Shown here: piece after piece, positions 18,419-28,181 of the stretch
How positions within the stretch are numbered: position 1 is the first letter of the stretch
Layout: the number at the start of each line of letters is the position of its first letter
Assembly (NCBI RefSeq): GCF_022788715.1
Contig: NZ_CP085167.1
Coordinates: 927,001-991,000 of the forward strand
Direction of reading: 5' to 3'
DNA: 64,000 bases
DNA from: Sulfitobacter sp. DSM 110093
Lineage (GTDB): Bacteria > Pseudomonadota > Alphaproteobacteria > Rhodobacterales > Rhodobacteraceae
Position numbers and translations under genes: made by a program
Notes under the pieces: model-generated
Database searches by the model: none
The model's input: only the letters and a program-made list of their open reading frames with translations
Told to the model about the DNA's origin: nothing

Positions 18419-18661
18419 ATGACGATGGCAATCTCACGTGGCACTACCCTGAGCTCCGCGCTCGATGGGCTTCAACACACCTATGACGGCATGCGTCGTC
18501 GTGTGGCCCAGATCAAGGCCCGGCGCGCAGCTTACGACCGAACTTTCACAGAACTTAACGTACTGAGCGATCGCGAACTGTCCGATATCGGCATCGCGCG
18601 GTGCGACATCCGGCGTGTGGCGTCGGAAGAACTTTCAAAGGAGCAGACCTATGAAGTATAA
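18419..18661 (+). CDS. DUF1127 domain protein (first of an overlapping pair)
   Basis: An 80-residue basic protein. The DUF1127 signature LSDRELSDIGIARCDIRRVA fills residues 48-67. Proteins with this domain in alphaproteobacteria are small, often induced in stress or stationary phase, and some act through RNA or phosphate and carbon metabolism; the role here is unknown. GAAAGGAG precedes the ATG. The last 11 bases overlap the start of the next gene, so the two are translationally coupled. Confidence 0.85.
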   Translation: MTMAISRGTTLSSALDGLQHTYDGMRRRVAQIKARRAAYDRTFTELNVLSDRELSDIGIARCDIRRVASEELSKEQTYEV

Positions 18662-18911
18662 CAACACCCTTAGCGCCCCCCACGGCTTTTCTTTCCGCGA
18701 CGCGACAGCGCCTGTTGTTGGTGCCCTCGGCACCGCAGCTGGCAAAGTCGGCAGCTTGCTGGCACGCGGCGTGACCCAGATGCAGATTTCGCGCATGCAG
18801 TCCGTCCTCAATAGCATGAGCGACGATCAGCTAGAGCGCGCGGGCATCGACCGGAACCAGATCCCGCAGCACGCCGAAGCGCTGGTTACCGAAGAATACG
18901 ACGGTTTGTAA
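18651..18911 (+). CDS. DUF1127-like small protein (second of an overlapping pair)
   Basis: An 86-residue protein whose C-terminal part, MSDDQLERAGIDRNQIPQHA, reads as a divergent DUF1127 motif. The N-terminal half is Gly/Ala-rich. The start at 18651 is set by AAAGGAG inside the upstream gene. The pair probably arose by duplication and divergence. The motif similarity is seen directly; the function is unknown. Confidence 0.75.
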   Translation: MKYNNTLSAPHGFSFRDATAPVVGALGTAAGKVGSLLARGVTQMQISRMQSVLNSMSDDQLERAGIDRNQIPQHAEALVTEEYDGL

Positions 18912-19044
18912 GCCTTAGGCTTTCGACCTTCAGAGATCAATGTCGCGCAATAGCGCTGCATTGTCAGGTGCCGGACCCCGCTCCTTCCCGGGTTGATCTG
19001 ACACCGCATCTTAACGGTCCTCCTCCTCCCGGACCCGTTATACC

Positions 19045-19080
19045 GGCCGGCAAGCTTACCTCCTCCCAAGCTTGCCGGCC
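19045..19080. terminator. Long perfect hairpin between convergent transcripts
   Basis: A 13-bp perfect stem (GGCCGGCAAGCTT at 19045-19057 with AAGCTTGCCGGCC at 19068-19080) and a 10-base loop lie between the DUF1127 pair (plus) and dtd (minus). CATGCTTTT follows on the plus strand. It can serve both directions, with the better T run on the plus side. Confidence 0.7.
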
Positions 19081-19100
19081 CATGCTTTTCCCGCTTTCGA

Positions 19101-19547
19101 TCAAGGTGCCGCGCTGTCGAGCCACAGAGTCACTGGCCCGTCATTGACCAGCGCCACTGACATATCCGCGCCGAACCGTCCCGTCTGAACTGGAATATCC
19201 AAGTCGGCAAAGCTGCGGGCAAAATGCTCATATAGCGCTTCGGCCATGTCAGGTTTCGCCGCGCCCGAAAAACCGGGACGATTGCCGCGTGATGTATCTG
19301 CGGCGAGAGTGAATTGGCTGACGACCAGTGCCGCGCCACCGGTCTGAGCAAGGCTCAAGTTCATTTTGCCGCCCTCATTTTTAAACAGCCGCAGTTTCGA
19401 AATTTTCAGCGCCAGCTTCTCTGCCCCCTCTTTTGTGTCCTCGGGCATGGCGCAGACGAGGATCAGCAGGCCGGGGCCTATCTCTCCGATGATCTTACCT
19501 TCGACCGTGACTGACGCCTCGGTCACCCGTTGCAGCAATGCGCGCAT
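19101..19547 (-). CDS. dtd: D-aminoacyl-tRNA deacylase
   Basis: A 148-residue DTD enzyme that hydrolyses D-amino acids (notably D-Tyr) and mischarged glycine from tRNA. It begins [13 protein letters not shown], the family start, and holds the catalytic [17 protein letters not shown] segment (about residues 77-93) and the Gly-Pro-type motif [11 protein letters not shown] near the end. I chose the internal ATG at 19547 because the upstream extension overlaps the nitroreductase gene and matches nothing. It is the last gene of the minus-strand cluster, one base after the nitroreductase stop. Confidence 0.95.
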
Positions 19548-19548
19548 G

Positions 19549-20226
19549 TCAGTCTTTCCAGTCGATAATGTCTGAGGGGGCCGCCCGTTCGGTACGAAAG
19601 GCGTTGGTCGGGTGATCTGAGTCTGCATATCCAAATGAGATGGCGCAGAGCACCAGCCGATCTTCGGGGAGATCAAGGGATTCGCGGACCAATGGCGCAT
19701 AGGCGGCAATGGCGGCCTGCGGGATGCTGGCCACGCCGAGCGCGGTTGCCGCAAGGGTAAAGGCCGTGACAAAGCCGCCGCAATCCATCGCGCCATAGGG
19801 CCCAAGCTCGGCAGGGGAGGTTACGATGGCCACATGTGGCGCGTCGAAAAGTTCGTAGTTCCGCAGCATCTGCGCCTTGCGCGCGTCGCGGTCGGATTTG
19901 GCGATGCCCACCGCATCATAAAGCTGAAACCCACAGGTGCGGCGGCGCTCGGCATATGGGCCGGAGTAGCCACTGGGCCAAGCGAGGTCAGGCTCAACCG
20001 GGGTGTTTTCATTGGCAGCCTTGAGCAGCGCGGCGCGAAAGGCGTCGGTGGCTGCGCCACGCGTTACGGTCACCTGCCATGGCTGGGCGTTGCACCACGA
20101 AGGCACATGGCGCGCGGCGCTCACGATCTGGATGATGGTTTCTTCAGGCAGCGGGTCAGACCGGAACGCGCGACAGGAATAGCGCGCCTGCAAAAGCGCG
20201 GCGAATTGGTTGTAAGTTTGGGTCAT
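19549..20226 (-). CDS. Nitroreductase family protein
   Basis: A 225-residue FMN-dependent oxidoreductase of the nitroreductase fold. The N-terminal FMN-phosphate-binding segment [17 protein letters not shown] is at about residues 15-31, [17 protein letters not shown] provides the second contact, and [16 protein letters not shown] lies in the C-terminal half. These enzymes reduce nitro compounds, quinones or flavins with NAD(P)H; the native substrate is unknown. The gene overlaps the zinc-ribbon gene upstream by 4 bp and abuts dtd downstream. Confidence 0.9.
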
Positions 20227-21335
20227 TGCTGTGCCATGAAATAGCCGACAATGGCGGCGGCAATTAGCCCCAGCACGACGGCAAATGTGATTTTAATCGC
20301 GGAGTAGGGCCGTTCGCCCTGCACCTTGCCGGAATGGCCGTTCACCACAAATCGATAGGTCTTGCCGCGGTATTTGTAGGCGGCAAGCCAGACCGGCAGC
20401 AGAATATGTTTGAAGGTCACATCGCTGATCTGCGTGTCGATATCATGCACGCGCTGACGGTCGCCGCCGATGTCAAATTTCACGTCACGTTCGATCACGC
20501 GGTCCATATGGGCGCGGGCCTGAACGAAGCCTTCCTCCAGCGTGATGCCATAGGCCTCGGCCCGGAAACCGGCGAGGTATTCGGGCGCATAGGGTTCCAG
20601 CGCGGACAGATCCCAAGGGTGCAGCGCGTCGGTGTGTTTCTTGGGCAGAGACCGGGAGGCCAGCACCAGCACGTCGTCAAAGAACCGCGCCACCCGGCCC
20701 GAGGCCGCGCGCCAGCGGATTTTCGGCACCTGCTGCTGCACGCGCTTGCCATCGCGCATGACGGTACGGGTCACGTAATAGACCGTGCCACGTTCCCCGC
20801 GATAGCTTGATGCCGTCTGCGCGTCATAGGTCCAGAAGGGCACGTAAATCCCCTGCATTCGGCGGCCCTTACGCGCGTATTGCTGCAAGCCGTTGGGCGC
20901 GAACCAAAGGCTGCCGAGCCAATCTTTCATTGCATTACGGGCGCTTTCTTCGGGCAGAGCAAAGGGCAGCACGGCGCGGGGTTTGATATGGCGGTTGGTG
21001 CCGGTGTCGATCACGATGGGCGTGGCGCAGAACGGGCATTCACGGGCGTGTTTACCGGGGGCGAACTCTACCTCGGCTGCGCAATTGGGGCAGGTGGTGA
21101 CGCGGGTTTCTTCCATTTCGGCGGCGGGCAGGGCGGATTGCAAGCCTGCGCGGAAGTCTTGCTCGGCGATGGCATGGGCGTGACGACCGGTGCCGTCGAT
21201 CGGTTCAACATTGCCGCAGTGATCGCAGATCAGCAGCGACTGCGCCGGATCAAAGCGCATGTCAGAGCCGCAGGTATCACAGGGGAAACGATGCTCTTCA
21301 AGCGGGGCGGCGGGGGGCAGATCGGTGGCGGACAT
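20223..21335 (-). CDS. Double zinc-ribbon protein with C-terminal membrane anchor (YdjG-like)
   Basis: A 370-residue protein with two four-cysteine zinc ribbons: Cys19/22/37/40 and Cys82/85/100/103. A long middle domain of unknown fold follows, and a single hydrophobic helix at about 345-366 is the likely membrane anchor. Homologues are often mislabelled as primosomal protein N' or TFIIB-like factors because of the ribbons; there is no helicase motif. The architecture resembles Bacillus YdjG, a membrane partner of PspA (family knowledge). An SPFH protein is encoded two genes away, which supports an envelope-stress role (inference). Confidence 0.75.
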   Translation of the reverse strand: MSATDLPPAAPLEEHRFPCDTCGSDMRFDPAQSLLICDHCGNVEPIDGTGRHAHAIAEQDFRAGLQSALPAAEMEETRVTTCPNCAAEVEFAPGKHARECPFCATPIVIDTGTNRHIKPRAVLPFALPEESARNAMKDWLGSLWFAPNGLQQYARKGRRMQGIYVPFWTYDAQTASSYRGERGTVYYVTRTVMRDGKRVQQQVPKIRWRAASGRVARFFDDVLVLASRSLPKKHTDALHPWDLSALEPYAPEYLAGFRAEAYGITLEEGFVQARAHMDRVIERDVKFDIGGDRQRVHDIDTQISDVTFKHILLPVWLAAYKYRGKTYRFVVNGHSGKVQGERPYSAIKITFAVVLGLIAAAIVGYFMAQQ

Positions 21336-21406
21336 GGGATATGCTTTGCAAGGTTAATCGCGGCGGAGCCTAGCGGCCTTGGGGTGCATGGGCCAGACCT
21401 TGAACC

Positions 21407-21955
21407 TCACAAAAAGCGGTGCAGGCATTTCGGCGCCATGATCCGCAGCGCGTTGTCGCGCAGGCGCAGGTGACGCCAAAGGTGGAACAGCGCATGGGCG
21501 CCCGCGATGGCGGCGAGCAGGTAGAATTCATAGATGTGGATTTTGCCAATCAGATCATGCGCATGCGGCAGGTTCAGCGGCGGGGCGACGGGCACCAGAT
21601 CGCTCGCCATAAAGAGACGCGGTGCAGTAAGACCAAGGCCAAAGCCCGTAAGTGCCACGCCAAACAGCCCCCAAATCAGCGCCTTATGCATCCATTGGTG
21701 CACACGCCGCGCCCAAGGCGGCAGCTTTGGCCCCGGTCGGCTGGCAAGACCCCTACGCAGGTAATCGGCGGTCCATAGCAAGCAGGCGGTGACAAAGACC
21801 AGCCCCAGCAGCGAATGAATGCGAAAGGCCGTGCGGCCAAAGGGCAGTACATCGGCGGGGGTCACGAGGATGAACCAGATCAGCAGCGGCACCATCGACC
21901 AATGCAGCACCTTTAGGGCGCTGCGGCGGTGCGGAAGGGTAAAGCGCGGTGTCAT
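21407..21955 (-). CDS. Cytochrome b561-type membrane protein
   Basis: A 182-residue four-helix di-heme cytochrome b of the prokaryotic b561 family. Candidate axial histidines lie in KVLHWSM (helix 1), RIHSLLGLV (helix 2), MHKALIWG (helix 3) and HIYEFYLLAAIAGAHALFHL (helix 4). Such proteins carry electrons across or within the inner membrane, often to or from quinone. Its presence within a TelA/SPFH cluster is unusual and suggests a redox component. Spacing to neighbours is 51 and 71 bp. Confidence 0.88.
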   Translation of the reverse strand: MTPRFTLPHRRSALKVLHWSMVPLLIWFILVTPADVLPFGRTAFRIHSLLGLVFVTACLLWTADYLRRGLASRPGPKLPPWARRVHQWMHKALIWGLFGVALTGFGLGLTAPRLFMASDLVPVAPPLNLPHAHDLIGKIHIYEFYLLAAIAGAHALFHLWRHLRLRDNALRIMAPKCLHRFL

Positions 21956-22006
21956 GGCAAAGCCACGGGCAAAAGGCGTGAAAGTTTCACCCGCAGCAGC
22001 GCCGGA

Positions 22007-23128
22007 TCACGCGGGCGGCGGCGGAGGGGGCGGTGGCATCACGGTAAAGAGCTGCGCGAGTTCGGCCACGTCTTCGGCCCGTTGCCAGCCGTCTTGGCCC
22101 GGCGTCCAGACCAAAGAATCGCGCCCAAGGCTGGCTTCGCTCACTTTGCGGCCCATCGCGGCCTTGGAAAAGGGGCCAGAGGTCGCGCCATCTTTGGCGA
22201 TATGCCAGACTTTTTCGACCGGCGGTGGGGGCGGCGGAACGGGCGCGGCAGCGGCAGGCGCAGGGCGCGCACCCCATGGGCCGGCCTGGGCGGTGGCGGC
22301 TTGGGCCATGCTCATGCCGAGGCCCGCACCAAGGCCGGTTTGCATCGCCGCACCCCCGGCACCGTCGCGGCCAAGCGCTTCGGCAGCCTGAAACTGCATG
22401 TATTCGTTGAGATTTCCAACGACGCCCATGGATGTACGCTTGTCCATCACCGCCTCAACCGCAGGGGGAAGCGAGATGTTTTCGATATAGAGCTCTGGCA
22501 TCGCCAGACCGTATTCCGCGATCTGCGCGGCGATATCCTTGCCCACCAACTGCCCCAACTCGCGCGTGTTTGCGGCCATGTCGAGCACCGGGATGCCAGA
22601 GGATGCAAGCGTGCGTGAGAATGCTTGAACGATGATATTACGGATTTGGTAAGAGATTTCGTCCATGGTGAATTCACCATCGGTGCCGACGATCTCAATC
22701 AGGAATTTCGCCGGGTCGCTTACCCGCACCGAATAGGTGCCATAGGCCCGCAATCGTACGGGGCCAAACTCAGGATCGCGGGCGATGATCGGGTTTTTTG
22801 TGCCCCATTTCAGATCGTTAAACCGGGTGGTGTTGACGAAGTAGATTTCGGATTTGAACGGGCTTTTGAAGCCGTGATCCCAATGCTGAAGGGAGGTCAT
22901 AATCGGCATATTGTTGGTCTCAAGCATATAGAGACCGGGGGTAAAGACATCCGCCAACTGCCCCTCATGCACAAAGACCGCGGCTTGCCCCTCGCGCACC
23001 GTCAGCTTGGCGCCGTATTTGATCTCATGGCCTTCACGCTCAAACCGCCAGACCATCGTGTCGCGGGTGTCGTCGGTCCAGTGAATGACGTCGATGAACT
23101 GGCCAGAGAGGAAATCGAAAATGCCCAT
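22007..23128 (-). CDS. SPFH/Band-7 domain protein with C-terminal GYF_2-like domain (YdjI-like)
   Basis: A 373-residue protein. Residues about 25-235 form an SPFH domain of the group once named virion core protein, with the segments IFDFLSGQFIDVIHW at the start and LGQLVGKDIAAQIAEYGL in the helical part. An Ala/Pro-rich linker (about 265-305) leads to a GYF_2-like domain, WHIAKDGATSGPFSKAAM through LVWTPGQDGWQRAEDV (about 308-355). The tail is proline-only. SPFH proteins scaffold membrane microdomains; the Bacillus homologue YdjI helps recruit PspA. GYF_2-like domains bind peptides, so this may be an adaptor. Confidence 0.85.
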   Translation of the reverse strand: MGIFDFLSGQFIDVIHWTDDTRDTMVWRFEREGHEIKYGAKLTVREGQAAVFVHEGQLADVFTPGLYMLETNNMPIMTSLQHWDHGFKSPFKSEIYFVNTTRFNDLKWGTKNPIIARDPEFGPVRLRAYGTYSVRVSDPAKFLIEIVGTDGEFTMDEISYQIRNIIVQAFSRTLASSGIPVLDMAANTRELGQLVGKDIAAQIAEYGLAMPELYIENISLPPAVEAVMDKRTSMGVVGNLNEYMQFQAAEALGRDGAGGAAMQTGLGAGLGMSMAQAATAQAGPWGARPAPAAAAPVPPPPPPVEKVWHIAKDGATSGPFSKAAMGRKVSEASLGRDSLVWTPGQDGWQRAEDVAELAQLFTVMPPPPPPPPA

Positions 23129-23163
23129 GGGGGTGGTCCTTATTTTTTCGTCGTAAAGGTGCG

Positions 23164-24126
23164 CTACACCGGCCCGTCCGTCAACTCGCGCGCGATGATC
23201 CGGCTGATCGGGTCGACCTGCTCTGCCGTCATACCGGGGCGCAGACGCGCGTCATAGAGCATCTTAAGCAGAAGCTCGTCGTGGTTGGTCAGCAGGGCGA
23301 ATTCGTCATCATCGTTAAAGATTGATGGCCGCGCGCTGGGGCTGTCGTTGGCCAGACCTAGCCCCTGAGCCAGTTCTTCGTGAATGCACGATAGCCGCAA
23401 CAGTTCAGGGTTTTCCGACCGGATCACCGCGACGGCGGCGGTGTAGACGTTGGGATTGTCGCCCGCCGCATAGGCAGCTACGGCGCAATAGGTGTCGCGG
23501 CGCATGTTGCGCATCGCGCGTAGCGATGAAGGGCTGACACCCGCGACCTCTTCGGCGGCTTGGGTCAATGCTTCGACGCGGTCATCCTCGGAGGCGACGA
23601 TCACCATGAAATTAGGCGTGCCATTGGTCGAAACCGGATGCCCGGTGACCCGTGAAAGGCGTCGGGCAAACGCTTTGATGTGGGCCGTGTCAGAGCGGCG
23701 CTGCGAAGGGGGGATGCTATCGCCAAAGATGATCCCCATATGCACCGGCGCTTCCCAGCGGCGCAGCGGGCTTGCGCCGCCCTGGCCCGCAAAATTGCCA
23801 TCGTATTCATTATAAAGCGCGATCTGTTCAAAGTTCCGCGCCAGCATGTCGCTGGTGAAAGGCGTGTCGGGCCCACCGCCGTCTTGGCGCAGCAGGTCTT
23901 GGCCCAATTGCGCCTTCTCAACCTGATGCAAATAGCTGCGCAGCATTGCGCTTTTTTGAGATGTGGGTTTGGCAACCTCGGGGGGGCGCGGGGCAGGTTC
24001 AGCCGGGCGTGCTTGGGGTTTAGCAACCGTTTGCGGCGCCGGCGCGGGTTCCGCACAGGCAAGCAACAAGGCGCAGAAAGACAACACCCCAGCGACGCGC
24101 AAATGTCGGCGCAAACGTCCTTGCAT
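23164..24126 (-). CDS. DUF2927 domain lipoprotein
   Basis: A 320-residue predicted lipoprotein: signal helix with lipobox LLLACAEPA (Cys near residue 23), then a Pro/Ala-rich linker. A DUF2927 domain follows (about residues 100-300) containing RRWEAPVHMGIIFG and a metalloprotease-like CIHEELAQGLGLANDSP segment (His and Glu pairs). I chose the ATG at 24126 because it starts the lipoprotein signal and avoids overlap with telA. DUF2927 proteins have no known function; the HEELxQxLG motif suggests a zinc peptidase relative, which is inference. Confidence 0.8.
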   Translation of the reverse strand: MQGRLRRHLRVAGVLSFCALLLACAEPAPAPQTVAKPQARPAEPAPRPPEVAKPTSQKSAMLRSYLHQVEKAQLGQDLLRQDGGGPDTPFTSDMLARNFEQIALYNEYDGNFAGQGGASPLRRWEAPVHMGIIFGDSIPPSQRRSDTAHIKAFARRLSRVTGHPVSTNGTPNFMVIVASEDDRVEALTQAAEEVAGVSPSSLRAMRNMRRDTYCAVAAYAAGDNPNVYTAAVAVIRSENPELLRLSCIHEELAQGLGLANDSPSARPSIFNDDDEFALLTNHDELLLKMLYDARLRPGMTAEQVDPISRIIARELTDGPV

Positions 24127-24148
24127 TGCCAGTTCCCTCACGTCGGTC

Positions 24149-25348
24149 TTAGCTCGGGACCGCGTTGCTGGTGGTGTCCCCCAAACCCGTTTCGCGTGCT
24201 TTGGCTGCGGCCAATGTGTCGCGCAAGCGGCCTTCCATCTCTTGCAGGTCTTTTTCTGCAGCCGCACGTTTTGCTTTGCCTTGGTCCGCGATCTGAAGCG
24301 ATTCTTCGATGGTGCCGATCAGGTCTTCATTGGCCTGTTTTACCGCTTCGATGTCAAACACACCGCGTTCCATCTCTTGGCGGATGACCTTGTTGCTGTC
24401 GCGCAGGTTCTTGGCGTTAGAGGTCAACAATTCGTTGGTCAGATCATTCGCTTCGCGCACGGCATTTGCCGCCTCACTGCTGCGTTGGATCGTCACGGCC
24501 TGCGCAAGTTGCGTTTCCCACAGCGGCACGGTGTTGACCAAGGTCGAGTTAATCTTGGTCACAAGACTTTTATCGTTTTCTTGCACCAAGCGGATGGAGG
24601 GGAGGGATTGCATCGTCACCTGCCGCGTCAGTTTAAGGTCATGCACCCGGCGTTCCAGATCATCACGCGCGGCGCGAAGATCGCGCAATTCTTGGGCGCG
24701 CATTACCTGATTTTCTTCGCTCGCCTTATCCAGCGCGGTCTGTTTTGCGGGGATGGTTTTGTGATCCAACTCTACGATCTTGGCCTCACCGGCAGAAATA
24801 TACAGCGCCAATTCATCGTAGAATTGCAGCGTCTTTTCATAAAGCAAGTCGAGCGATTTGATGTCTTTCAATAGTGTGTGCTCATGGGCCAGCAAATTGT
24901 CAGTGATCTGGTCAATCTGGCCTTGCACCTCTTCAAAACGCGCGGTGAATTTGGCGAAAGGCGTGGCACGGCCCAGCAGTTTTTCCCACCAGCTTTGCTT
25001 GCGGCGGACATCCAGCTCCGAGACCGAGAAACCGCGAATCGCGCTGACAATGGTGCGCAGGCTGTCGCCTGCTGGCCCGACATCCTTGTTGCGCACATCG
25101 GCGAGCATGGATTGGCTGATCTCTTGTAACTCGGCCTGCGCGGCAGAGCCGAAGCTGACGATGGATTGGGTGTCGGTCACGTCAATCTCGGCCATGCGTT
25201 TTTGAATTTCTGCGCTCTGGGTCGCGTCGGCTTTGGCCAATGGCACGATGGCGTTGGCGTCCGAAGGTTCGGGCAGGACGGTTGCGTTCACTTCTTCGAC
25301 CAGCCCTTGGGACTGGGCAGCTTTTTCACGGACGGCATCGGTCATCAC
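24149..25348 (-). CDS. TelA/KlaA family toxic-anion resistance protein
   Basis: A 399-residue cytoplasmic, strongly coiled-coil protein of the TelA family (PF05816), linked in plasmids and Bacillus to tellurite and envelope or antimicrobial stress. Family segments visible are QISEIN-like N-terminal helices, KQSWWEKLLGRATPFAKF near residue 120, and the C-terminal half with NTVPLWETQLAQAVTIQ. The length is typical. The start overlaps the XpaC gene by 4 bp, as TelA-XpaC pairs usually do. The biochemical activity is unknown. Confidence 0.9.
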   Translation of the reverse strand: MMTDAVREKAAQSQGLVEEVNATVLPEPSDANAIVPLAKADATQSAEIQKRMAEIDVTDTQSIVSFGSAAQAELQEISQSMLADVRNKDVGPAGDSLRTIVSAIRGFSVSELDVRRKQSWWEKLLGRATPFAKFTARFEEVQGQIDQITDNLLAHEHTLLKDIKSLDLLYEKTLQFYDELALYISAGEAKIVELDHKTIPAKQTALDKASEENQVMRAQELRDLRAARDDLERRVHDLKLTRQVTMQSLPSIRLVQENDKSLVTKINSTLVNTVPLWETQLAQAVTIQRSSEAANAVREANDLTNELLTSNAKNLRDSNKVIRQEMERGVFDIEAVKQANEDLIGTIEESLQIADQGKAKRAAAEKDLQEMEGRLRDTLAAAKARETGLGDTTSNAVPS

Positions 25349-26259
25349 TGATCTTCCTTAGTATTTACGGGCGTAGACTGATCCAGCCTGACCCCCTCGC
25401 GGGAGAGACGCGCACGCAGCACGTCGATTTCGACGTTCAGATCGCTGCGATCGTCAAGCAGGGATTTCGCCGTTCGAGCGGCGAAATTCTCATCCAGATC
25501 GTCGAGCAGCGCAAGGTAATCATCGCGGGCTTGTTCATCGTGGTTGCGGGCATACAGGTCTGCGAACTTCACCGTCGCATCATGCGCGCCGCGTAGGTAG
25601 ACGACAAGGTATTTGCGGGCGGCTGTCAAATCACGCGGGTCTTCTTCGACGGTACGGATCAGGTGACGTGCGGTGTCTTGGAAATCTGCCAATCTTGCTT
25701 CAGCACGGCGGTCCCCGGCGCGGAGGATTGCCTGGCTCATGCCTGACAGCAGTTTTTCCGCCTCGTCCACCACGCGGGCCACGCGGTCTTGTTGGAAGGT
25801 GTCGATACCTTCCATCCCTTTGTTTTTTAAGGGGTCAATGCCAAAGGCAGCCACATGCAGCGCTCCAACCGCCACGCCGTACAGCAGCGGGGCGACTGTG
25901 CCGGGCTCTGACGTGTAGGCGGCGAGTGCAGTGCCCAATCCGGCCAGAAGGGCAGCGAAGATTTTGCGGGGCCACGCGGGGCGGCGGGCGACCTTGCGCT
26001 CGTTATACTCAGCTTCGGCAAGCAAACCTTCGCGCAAAAGCCATACGCCAGAGGCCAACACAAAAGCCCCGGCAAGCCCAATGACCAAAGTACCAGCGCC
26101 ACCCATCAAAGAGGTCGCGGCCAAAACAATGGGTGGCAGGAACATCAGGTTCACACGCCCGCCCGCTGGGTCAACGCGCAGCCGTTGCGTTTTGCGCGGA
26201 GTCTTACCGGGCTGTGTATCGGGATCGGGGCTATAGCGGCCCCCAAAGCGTTGCGCCAT
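25345..26259 (-). CDS. XpaC family protein (5-bromo-4-chloroindolyl phosphate hydrolysis protein)
   Basis: A 304-residue protein of the XpaC family. Two to three transmembrane helices lie at about residues 40-115, followed by a soluble helical domain (about 135-300) with the segments RVVDEAEKLLSGMSQAI and LIRTVEEDPRDLTAARKYLV. The name comes from a phosphatase phenotype in Bacillus, but no phosphatase motif is visible. It is almost always next to TelA, as here, with a 4-bp ATGA overlap. It probably anchors TelA-type function at the membrane (inference). Confidence 0.85.
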   Translation of the reverse strand: MAQRFGGRYSPDPDTQPGKTPRKTQRLRVDPAGGRVNLMFLPPIVLAATSLMGGAGTLVIGLAGAFVLASGVWLLREGLLAEAEYNERKVARRPAWPRKIFAALLAGLGTALAAYTSEPGTVAPLLYGVAVGALHVAAFGIDPLKNKGMEGIDTFQQDRVARVVDEAEKLLSGMSQAILRAGDRRAEARLADFQDTARHLIRTVEEDPRDLTAARKYLVVYLRGAHDATVKFADLYARNHDEQARDDYLALLDDLDENFAARTAKSLLDDRSDLNVEIDVLRARLSREGVRLDQSTPVNTKEDQ

Positions 26260-26262
26260 GGC

Positions 26263-26493
26263 TTAGAGCCCCCCGAGAAAGCCGCTGGTCACGCCCAGTA
26301 GCACTACCAGAAGCGCCCCATAAGCGATTTTCTGAAAGGGTGTGGGCGCCATCAAGTTTCCCCTTTTGCTGCCCCAGATGGGGCGCAGAGCTGTGCCTGC
26401 GGTGTCTGCCGCGCGCCCCAAGAGCGAGGCCGCGCCGAGGATGATAACCACCAGCGCGGCCAAGGCCACCAAAAACATCAGTATTCGCGCCAT
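26263..26493 (-). CDS. Small two-helix membrane protein
   Basis: A 76-residue protein with hydrophobic helices at about residues 4-24 and 57-75 joined by a basic, probably cytoplasmic, loop. Only 3 bp separate its stop from the xpaC start, so it is likely the first gene of the nine-gene minus-strand transcript. I recognise no named family. The function is unknown; an accessory subunit of the TelA/XpaC membrane complex is a reasonable guess. Confidence 0.65.
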   Translation of the reverse strand: MARILMFLVALAALVVIILGAASLLGRAADTAGTALRPIWGSKRGNLMAPTPFQKIAYGALLVVLLGVTSGFLGGL

Positions 26494-26604
26494 ATTGCCC
26501 TTTTCTGACAGCGGTTTCGCGCCGGTCTTGCCTGTCGTTCTCTATTCAACGCGCGCATTACAGCAGCGTTCCAGCAATCGGCGGCTCAGATGGGGGCGAG
26601 AATG

Positions 26605-27663
26605 TCAGCGGCGGGGCTTTGGGCCCCTGCTGCCGGGTTTGCCACCCGTACGGCCACCGGGGCGCGCGCCCGGTTTGGCTGTGTTTCTGCCCGATGTCGC
26701 CTTGCCACGCGGCGCGTTCTTGGCCTTGCCGCCACCGCGACGGGGCGGTGGTTCGTCGTCTTCGCCGCGTTGCACCGGCATGCCCGGCTGACCCGCGCCG
26801 CCGAAGCCACCGGGTTTGCGCCGCGGCGGGCGACGTACTGTGGTGGGTTTCTTGACGGCGGTGCCGGTGGGGTCTTCCAGCTCTAGCCCCAATTGGTCAC
26901 GCACGACCTTGCGGCGCAGCTCTTCGACTTCGCCAGTTTTAAGTTCGCCCAATTGGAACGGGCCATAGGAGACGCGGATCAGCCGGTTCACAGTCAGACC
27001 AACGGCCTCCATCGCGCGGCGGATCTCACGGTTGCGGCCTTCGCGCAGGCCGATGGTCAGCCAAGCGTTCGCGCCTTGCTGACGGTCCAGCGATACATCC
27101 ATAGGTTGGAACTGTTCGCCCTCCACGGTGATGCCTTTGCGCAGCGGTTCCAGCATCTCATCGGTGGGGCGGCCATTCACCCGGGCACGATAGCGGCGCA
27201 GCCAGCCGGTGCTGGGCAATTCCAGCTTGCGTTTCACGCCGCCGTCATTGGTCAGTAGCAGCAGACCTTCGGAATTGAGATCAAGCCGCCCCACGGTCAT
27301 CACGCGGGGCATGTCCTCGGGCAGGGCGTCAAAGATCGTTTCGCGGCCTTTTTCGTCAGAGTTCGTCGTCACCAACCCGGTGGGCTTGTGGTAGAGCCAG
27401 ATGCGCGGCGGCTCGGGCGCGCCGACGGGGGTGTTGTCGACTGTAATCTTATCGTCGGGCGTCACGTTCAGCGCGGGCGAGGTGATCTGTTCCCCATTCA
27501 CGCGCACGCGGCCCGCCTCGATCATCCGCTCAGCCTCACGACGCGAGGCGATGCCTGCGCGAGACAGCACTTTGGCAATGCGGTCGCCCTTCGCCGTATC
27601 GGCGGCGGCATCGGAAGAATCAGCAGTCGGGCCGGAGCCGGAGGAGGGAGGTTTTGCGTTCAT
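26605..27663 (-). CDS. rluB: 23S rRNA pseudouridine synthase, RluB type
   Basis: A 352-residue RsuA/RluB-family enzyme making pseudouridine in large-subunit rRNA. An S4 RNA-binding domain (about residues 27-85, RIAKVLSRAGIASRREAERM) precedes the catalytic domain with GRLDLNSEGLLLLTNDG (catalytic Asp in the first motif) and REGRNREIRRAMEAVG. Residues about 265-352 form a Gly/Pro/Arg/Lys-rich disordered tail, longer than in E. coli RluB and common in alphaproteobacteria. It is divergent from tadA, with 62 bp between starts. RluB rather than RluE or RluF is the best guess from the S4 domain and tail. Confidence 0.88.
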   Translation of the reverse strand: MNAKPPSSGSGPTADSSDAAADTAKGDRIAKVLSRAGIASRREAERMIEAGRVRVNGEQITSPALNVTPDDKITVDNTPVGAPEPPRIWLYHKPTGLVTTNSDEKGRETIFDALPEDMPRVMTVGRLDLNSEGLLLLTNDGGVKRKLELPSTGWLRRYRARVNGRPTDEMLEPLRKGITVEGEQFQPMDVSLDRQQGANAWLTIGLREGRNREIRRAMEAVGLTVNRLIRVSYGPFQLGELKTGEVEELRRKVVRDQLGLELEDPTGTAVKKPTTVRRPPRRKPGGFGGAGQPGMPVQRGEDDEPPPRRGGGKAKNAPRGKATSGRNTAKPGARPGGRTGGKPGSRGPKPRR

Positions 27664-27725
27664 ACACTGCGCTTACCCTGTTTCACGCCCTTGCGAAAGG
27701 GTGGCGTTTGCGGCCATGTGAGCGG

Positions 27726-28181
27726 ATGAAGTTTCGCTCATATATGGCTCAGGCGCTGGAAGAAGCCCGTGCCGCCGCCGCGCGCGGCGAGGTGCCGGTG
27801 GGCGCGGTTGTGGTCTCTCCCACGGGAGAGATCATTGCAGCGGCGGGCAATGAGACCCGCGCACGCCATGATCCGACCGCCCATGCCGAGATGTTGGCCC
27901 TGCGTGCCGCCTGTGCCGCGGTTGGGTCGGAGCGGCTGATCAACCATGCGCTCTACGTCACATTAGAGCCTTGTGCGATGTGCGCCGGGGCCATCGCCGC
28001 CGCCCGGGTCGGGCGGTTGTTTTATGGCGCGGCAGACCCCAAGTCAGGCGGCGTGGCACAAGGCGCGCGGGTGTTTTCGCATCCGCAATGCCACCATGCG
28101 CCAGAGGTCTTTGATGGTATCGCCGCGAGCGATGCCGAAGACTTGCTGATCGATTTTTTCAAAGCAAAAAGAGGGGGGTAA
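27726..28181 (+). CDS. tadA: tRNA-specific adenosine deaminase
   Basis: A 151-residue zinc deaminase converting A34 to inosine in tRNA-Arg(ACG). The HAEMLALRAA motif (His/Glu) and PCAMCAGAI (two Cys ligands) make the catalytic centre. The start MKFRSYMAQALEEA at 27726 fits the family; an ATG at 27744 is a possible alternative. A longer reading from 27654 would overlap rluB and is unlikely. The following DUF5671 gene begins 3 bp after the stop. Confidence 0.95.
   Translation: MKFRSYMAQALEEARAAAARGEVPVGAVVVSPTGEIIAAAGNETRARHDPTAHAEMLALRAACAAVGSERLINHALYVTLEPCAMCAGAIAAARVGRLFYGAADPKSGGVAQGARVFSHPQCHHAPEVFDGIAASDAEDLLIDFFKAKRGG

Follow-up and report, generated by a model that had tools for sequence, protein, structure and literature searches.

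A conserved XpaC-TelA-SPFH-zinc-ribbon gene block with a likely pseudo-metzincin lipoprotein in a PspA-less Sulfitobacter genome

The genome of Sulfitobacter sp. DSM 110093 (Rhodobacteraceae) carries, within the 64,000-nucleotide stretch analysed here (contig NZ_CP085167.1, positions 927,001 to 991,000; hereafter the window, whose own numbering is used throughout), a minus-strand gene block that joins the XpaC and TelA families to a DUF2927 lipoprotein, an SPFH protein and a zinc-ribbon membrane protein. We find that this conserved envelope module is real and that, in its own genome, it manages without PspA. The linkage of the core genes is strong, as it is kept in order and strand in most relatives and recurs, with four of the five genes, in other families. 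That the block works as a PspA-independent envelope-maintenance module is our tentative reading, to which we give a little less than an even chance. The locus comprises nine open reading frames (ORFs):

26263..26493, minus strand: small membrane protein of 76 amino acids with two hydrophobic segments (ORF list, hydropathy); optional
25345..26259, minus strand: XpaC (PF10112), membrane protein whose helical part is cytosolic (Pfam, two hydrophobic segments, conservation); core
24149..25348, minus strand: TelA (PF05816), soluble and all-helical (Pfam, AF2 model); core
23164..24132, minus strand: DUF2927 lipoprotein, predicted matrixin-fold pseudo-metzincin (Pfam, alignment, model, fold matches, motif counts); core in Rhodobacteraceae
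22007..23128, minus strand: SPFH (Band_7_1) protein with a C-terminal GYF_2 domain between proline runs (Pfam, alignment, proline and hydropathy counts); core
21407..21955, minus strand: cytochrome b561-type membrane protein (Pfam); optional
20223..21335, minus strand: double zinc-ribbon protein with one C-terminal transmembrane segment (invariant Cys, hydropathy); core
19549..20226, minus strand: nitroreductase-family protein (Pfam); optional
19101..19547, minus strand: dtd, D-aminoacyl-tRNA deacylase, probably with a housekeeping role (Pfam and NCBIfam); frequent downstream neighbour

A five-gene core conserved in Rhodobacteraceae

ORF coordinates and Pfam searches bear out the place, families and spacing given for the nine genes in the first-pass annotation. 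TelA (PF05816, E 3e-106, 355.7 bits against a cut-off of 30) and XpaC (PF10112, Halogen_Hydrol, E 1e-26, 94.5 bits against 29.8) are members of their families, the SPFH protein combines Band_7_1 (PF13421, E 6e-101) with GYF_2 (PF14237, E 6e-18), and the remaining assignments are DUF2927 (PF11150, E 9e-61), dtd (PF02580, E 2e-53), nitroreductase (PF00881, E 6e-29) and cytochrome b561 (PF01292, E 1e-7, 32.1 bits against a cut-off of 30.1). Genes overlap by 4 bases at XpaC/TelA and at zinc ribbon/nitroreductase, and the widest gap, of 71 bases, separates b561 from the zinc-ribbon gene. A promoter scan of positions 18900-27800 found no sigma-70-like site where shuffled sequence would give 2.5; terminator-like sites numbered 8, against 9.4 expected. 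In the whole genome (4.34 Mb in 6 contigs), profile searches gave a single TelA and a single Band_7_1 match.

Scanning genome contigs for TelA gave 91 relatives, the best 80 of which were compared by tblastn with the window proteins, keeping the best match per gene and locus. They represent Rhodobacteraceae or Rhodobacterales genera, or metagenome-assembled genomes assigned to family or higher level only, and the closest named genome by TelA is Sulfitobacter dubius (99%). The series XpaC-TelA-DUF2927-SPFH-zinc ribbon is complete, with order and strand kept, in 72 of the 80 loci; among the other eight the genes found are never out of order, and six (L015, L040, L041, L059, L074 and L077) run into a contig end. 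With four of the core genes also found in four other families, the shared order reaches far past close relatives; the first-pass annotation had named the opposite outcome as a refutation of its proposal.

The remaining parts of the locus are more variable. Among the 72 complete loci, b561 lies between the SPFH and zinc-ribbon genes in 16, a nitroreductase follows the zinc ribbon in 30, and the small membrane protein has a tblastn match in 18; of 76 loci, 26 have an ORF with two predicted transmembrane segments immediately before XpaC, though a few of those ORFs are probably spurious. Twenty-two related ORFs sit between the zinc ribbon and dtd, replacing the nitroreductase or beside it, and the one member scanned is a PfkB kinase. 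Because b561, the nitroreductase and other parts vary among loci, we regard the core as consisting of five genes and the nine-gene set as its local form. The redox half of the role first proposed for the locus is thereby weakened, its parts being optional.

These counts also bear on the idea that the operon serves resistance to tellurite or toxic anions in the narrow sense, TelA and XpaC countering oxyanions while nitroreductase and b561 supply reducing power. Both of the latter are encoded in the window, and a review names telA of Rhodobacter sphaeroides, from the same family, as a tellurite-resistance element of the chromosome (PMC6955997, citing O'Gara 1997). However, it is the SPFH and zinc-ribbon genes that are fixed, and not the two redox genes; moreover, in a Listeria telA mutant sensitivity to nisin rose 4-fold and that to tellurite 2-fold (PMC12791056, citing Collins 2010), so that the nisin effect exceeds the tellurite effect. 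We consider a dedicated resistance operon unlikely.

Recurrence outside the family

In a wider sample of 142 alphaproteobacterial genomes, TelA exceeds the Pfam cut-off in 12 and a full-length Band_7_1 protein (E < 1e-70) occurs in 7; TelA is present in all seven and in the same cluster in six. Two of these six belong to the family of our genome and four (L096-L099) to four other families, where XpaC-TelA-SPFH-zinc ribbon are tightly packed in the same order, with no match for DUF2927, tadA, the pseudouridine synthase gene (pus) or dtd. If one genome of the own-family pair is omitted and genomes are treated as independent, the six Band_7_1 genomes left would all coincide by chance with TelA-bearing ones (11 of 141) with a probability of ~5e-8. 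Two further stretches, L092 and L093, both shorter than 4 kb, gave no matches. In the seventh genome (G012), the Band_7_1 gene (L145) lies ~128 kb from TelA, near two DUF4178 genes.

Shared descent within Rhodobacteraceae could by itself keep neighbours together, and indeed, of the 72 complete loci, 60 have tadA and pus before the block and 59 have dtd after it in the same orientation. Yet in L067 and L068 the five core genes persist although neither tadA nor pus lies upstream, and in L096-L099 four of them do so with no match to any of these flanks. We therefore reject mere synteny, which we consider highly improbable.

Comparison with the PspA system

The pspA-ydjGHI operon of Bacillus subtilis likewise encodes an SPFH protein and a transmembrane protein with two zinc ribbons, the likeness of the latter being one of layout (PMC8581546, PMC11237479). 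There, the SPFH protein YdjI requires the membrane proteins YdjG and YdjH for its localisation, and PspA foci depend on YdjI (PMC8581546). Our genome shares the SPFH protein; a search of the whole genome found no PspA (PF04012) at E 1e-3 and no TPM protein of the YdjH type (PF04536), in searches whose controls were positive in 9 and 8 of 14 known genomes, respectively. No pspA that might serve the SPFH and zinc-ribbon proteins was thus found elsewhere, an outcome that spares the first-pass proposal another of its named refutations. The block here includes TelA, XpaC and a lipoprotein, and its SPFH protein ends in a GYF domain, whereas the Bacillus one is described with a zinc ribbon at its C-terminus (PMC11237479).

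The absence of PspA is not, however, a defining trait of the block. Among 120 Rhodobacteraceae genomes, TelA was found in 105, DUF2927 in 114 and PspA over its cut-off in 22 (25 at E < 1e-3, leaving 95 without a match). TelA and PspA are uncorrelated (19 of 22 PspA-positive against 86 of 98 other genomes; Fisher p=1), so that 19 of the 105 TelA-bearing genomes also carry PspA, and TelA as a strict substitute for PspA is rejected. PspA is usually absent in Rhodobacteraceae, but there is no one-for-one replacement by TelA.

The SPFH-GYF and zinc-ribbon proteins

The SPFH protein has no hydrophobic segment by hydropathy, and a sequence search against solved structures yielded for it a GYF domain only. 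Proline runs surround this domain (22007-22240); of the 73 relatives counted, with ORFs shorter than 330 amino acids omitted, 70 have such a run in the linker and 72 have one within the final 20 residues. GYF domains are binders of proline-rich peptides, and a simple guess is that the SPFH subunits bind each other.

The zinc-ribbon protein has eight invariant cysteines, arranged in four CxxC pairs, in 25 aligned sequences (each of our alignments is a selected sample: A1 has 26, A2 25 and A4 24 sequences), and a single C-terminal transmembrane segment at residues 349-367. It gives only sub-threshold zinc-ribbon matches in Pfam and, by sequence against solved structures, small zinc ribbons with no other credible relative. 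The likeness to YdjG suggested in the first-pass annotation is one of layout, with two zinc ribbons, a further domain and a transmembrane helix.

The DUF2927 lipoprotein

The DUF2927 protein contains the motif E252-E253-x-x-Q256-x-x-G259-x-x-N262, numbered from the TTG at 24132, the true start being likely the ATG at 24126. Its predicted structure matches matrixin metzincins among known folds; a sequence search against the PDB gave no metzincin match and no other credible relative, and the relation to matrixins is one of fold. We rate the matrixin-like assignment of the modelled fold as fair to good. In contrast to matrixin metzincins such as matrix metalloproteinases (MMPs) and karilysin, it has Glu, Gln and Asn in place of the three zinc-binding histidines, plus a lipobox, and it is likely a pseudo-metzincin. 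There is thus reason to predict that it binds rather than cuts.

The opposite case, an active metallopeptidase whose metal is held by Glu, Gln and Asn, draws on E253, at the position of the general base, being kept in 26 of 26 aligned sequences, and on ligand positions that are invariant instead of drifting. However, EExxQxxGxxN is found in all 26, with His at none of the three ligand positions, and among the matches listed (n=120) no homologue has HExxHxxGxxH and 119 have EExxQxxGxxND; the count over loci omitted ORFs shorter than 200 amino acids and covered 75 of the 80. We therefore consider peptidase activity very unlikely.

Our genome encodes a second DUF2927 protein outside the window (L106:3744-5114, in G000:C1:1338000-1347000), 456 amino acids long, with a lipobox-like start and the same Glu-Glu-Gln-Gly-Asn pattern. 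Its gene lies (L106:2359-6161) between those of an AAA_5 ATPase, which we take to be of the MoxR type (the bpMoxR match is sub-threshold), and of a CoxE-like VWA protein, and the trio has the same order in all four genomes looked at (L106, L107, L108 and L109). Placement beside an ATPase-VWA pair would fit a binding role. We found no paper naming DUF2927 in the literature searched.

A tentative mechanism and its alternatives

What we observe is the linkage of the genes; a complex, a sensor role and the stress responded to are what we infer from it. In the envelope-maintenance module that we favour, XpaC would hold TelA at the inner membrane, and the zinc-ribbon protein would anchor an SPFH oligomer there, as the membrane partners do for Bacillus YdjI, with GYF domains binding the proline runs of neighbouring subunits. 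The lipoprotein, as a non-cutting pseudoprotease, may bind peptides or damaged proteins in the periplasm and report to the complex. Its lipobox would fit either membrane, so that the span first envisaged, from cytoplasm to outer membrane, is unproven. The module would be expected to help cells tolerate stress on membrane and cell wall, and tellurite sensitivity would be one way to read this out. The nisin and tellurite sensitivity of the Listeria telA mutant and the transglycosylase-domain genes near TelA in L139, described below, speak for this reading.

Several observations weigh against this proposal. In L026 and L061 the first four genes are present and the zinc ribbon has no match in the fetched stretch, though the locus continues. 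The four out-group clusters lack DUF2927, which makes it an add-on to the block, and the best Foldseek match to its model has E 0.011, with none below 0.001, which is weak by itself. The TelA model (pTM 0.58, modest confidence; long helices at 130-208 and 211-327) resembles generic helical bundles and pore-toxin hairpins in the PDB. TelA also occurs apart from the block: L100 has an XpaC-TelA pair with no SPFH or zinc-ribbon match; L101, L102, L103 and L105 have TelA with no match for XpaC, SPFH or zinc ribbon; L104, where TelA is detected by the Pfam model alone, has no SPFH or zinc-ribbon match; and in L102:6977-8548 and L140:6049-7623 TelA adjoins a protein with SBP_bac_11 and VWA domains. 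TelA therefore has other partners.

TelA-XpaC and SPFH-zinc ribbon might accordingly be independent pairs that share transcription in a stress operon and form no physical complex. The pair in L100 speaks for this, as do the Bacillus SPFH and zinc-ribbon proteins in the pspA operon (PMC8581546, PMC11237479) and insertions that part these two genes by more than 1000 bases in 11 of the 72 complete loci. The fixed order in the relatives examined, and the reappearance of the four-gene set between different flanks in other families, argue against it, and we hold it to be rather unlikely. The adjacency of both families is itself known from Firmicutes, where XpaC pairs with TelA (YaaN), e.g. in Listeria lmo1966-lmo1967 (PMC12791056); here, by contrast, SPFH, zinc-ribbon and DUF2927 genes join the pair in a fixed block of greater size.

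A bolder version of the module would put TelA in the structural place of PspA, as a helical polymer that remodels membranes and is brought there by XpaC and an SPFH/GYF-zinc-ribbon scaffold, with the dead matrixin lipoprotein as periplasmic damage sensor. If true, bacteria would have another machine for membrane repair, one that works without PspA and has a pseudo-metzincin among its parts; we think this quite unlikely. Searches of the TelA model against the PDB gave no PspA, Vipp1 or ESCRT-III among the matches listed (50 per search), and no credible relative of TelA or XpaC emerged by sequence against solved structures. Because the confidence of the model is modest and its structure matches are generic, we make no fold claim for TelA.

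We read the block as a variation on two known themes, SPFH-zinc ribbon and XpaC-TelA, joined by a lipoprotein that is likely a pseudo-metzincin. No description of a TelA/XpaC-SPFH-zinc-ribbon cluster appeared among the matches listed in a search of titles and abstract starts, which covered few subscription papers; it may have been noticed before, for example in comparative genomics of Ter systems. Both TelA and XpaC are widespread and named for old phenotypes, with no mechanism met in the literature passages covered, and being constantly linked to genes for an SPFH protein and a tail-anchored zinc-ribbon protein places them in a testable setting, while DUF2927 gains a predicted fold and grounds for binding instead of cutting. 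Were the favoured module confirmed, an abundant marine family would rely on it as one of its chief means of envelope maintenance.

Further observations

In L139:3149-8314, from another class, XpaC and TelA are accompanied by a GYF-domain protein that matches Band_7_1 below threshold, an unmatched gene and two genes with transglycosylase domains, which hints at a possible link of TelA to the cell wall or peptidoglycan. L105:8235-14566, from another family, contains a distant TelA and, ~4.4 kb away on the other strand, a DUF2927 gene, by chance or as a relic. Directly downstream of the operon, at 18419-18911, lie two small adjoining plus-strand ORFs with similar ends, presumably tandem DUF1127 proteins.

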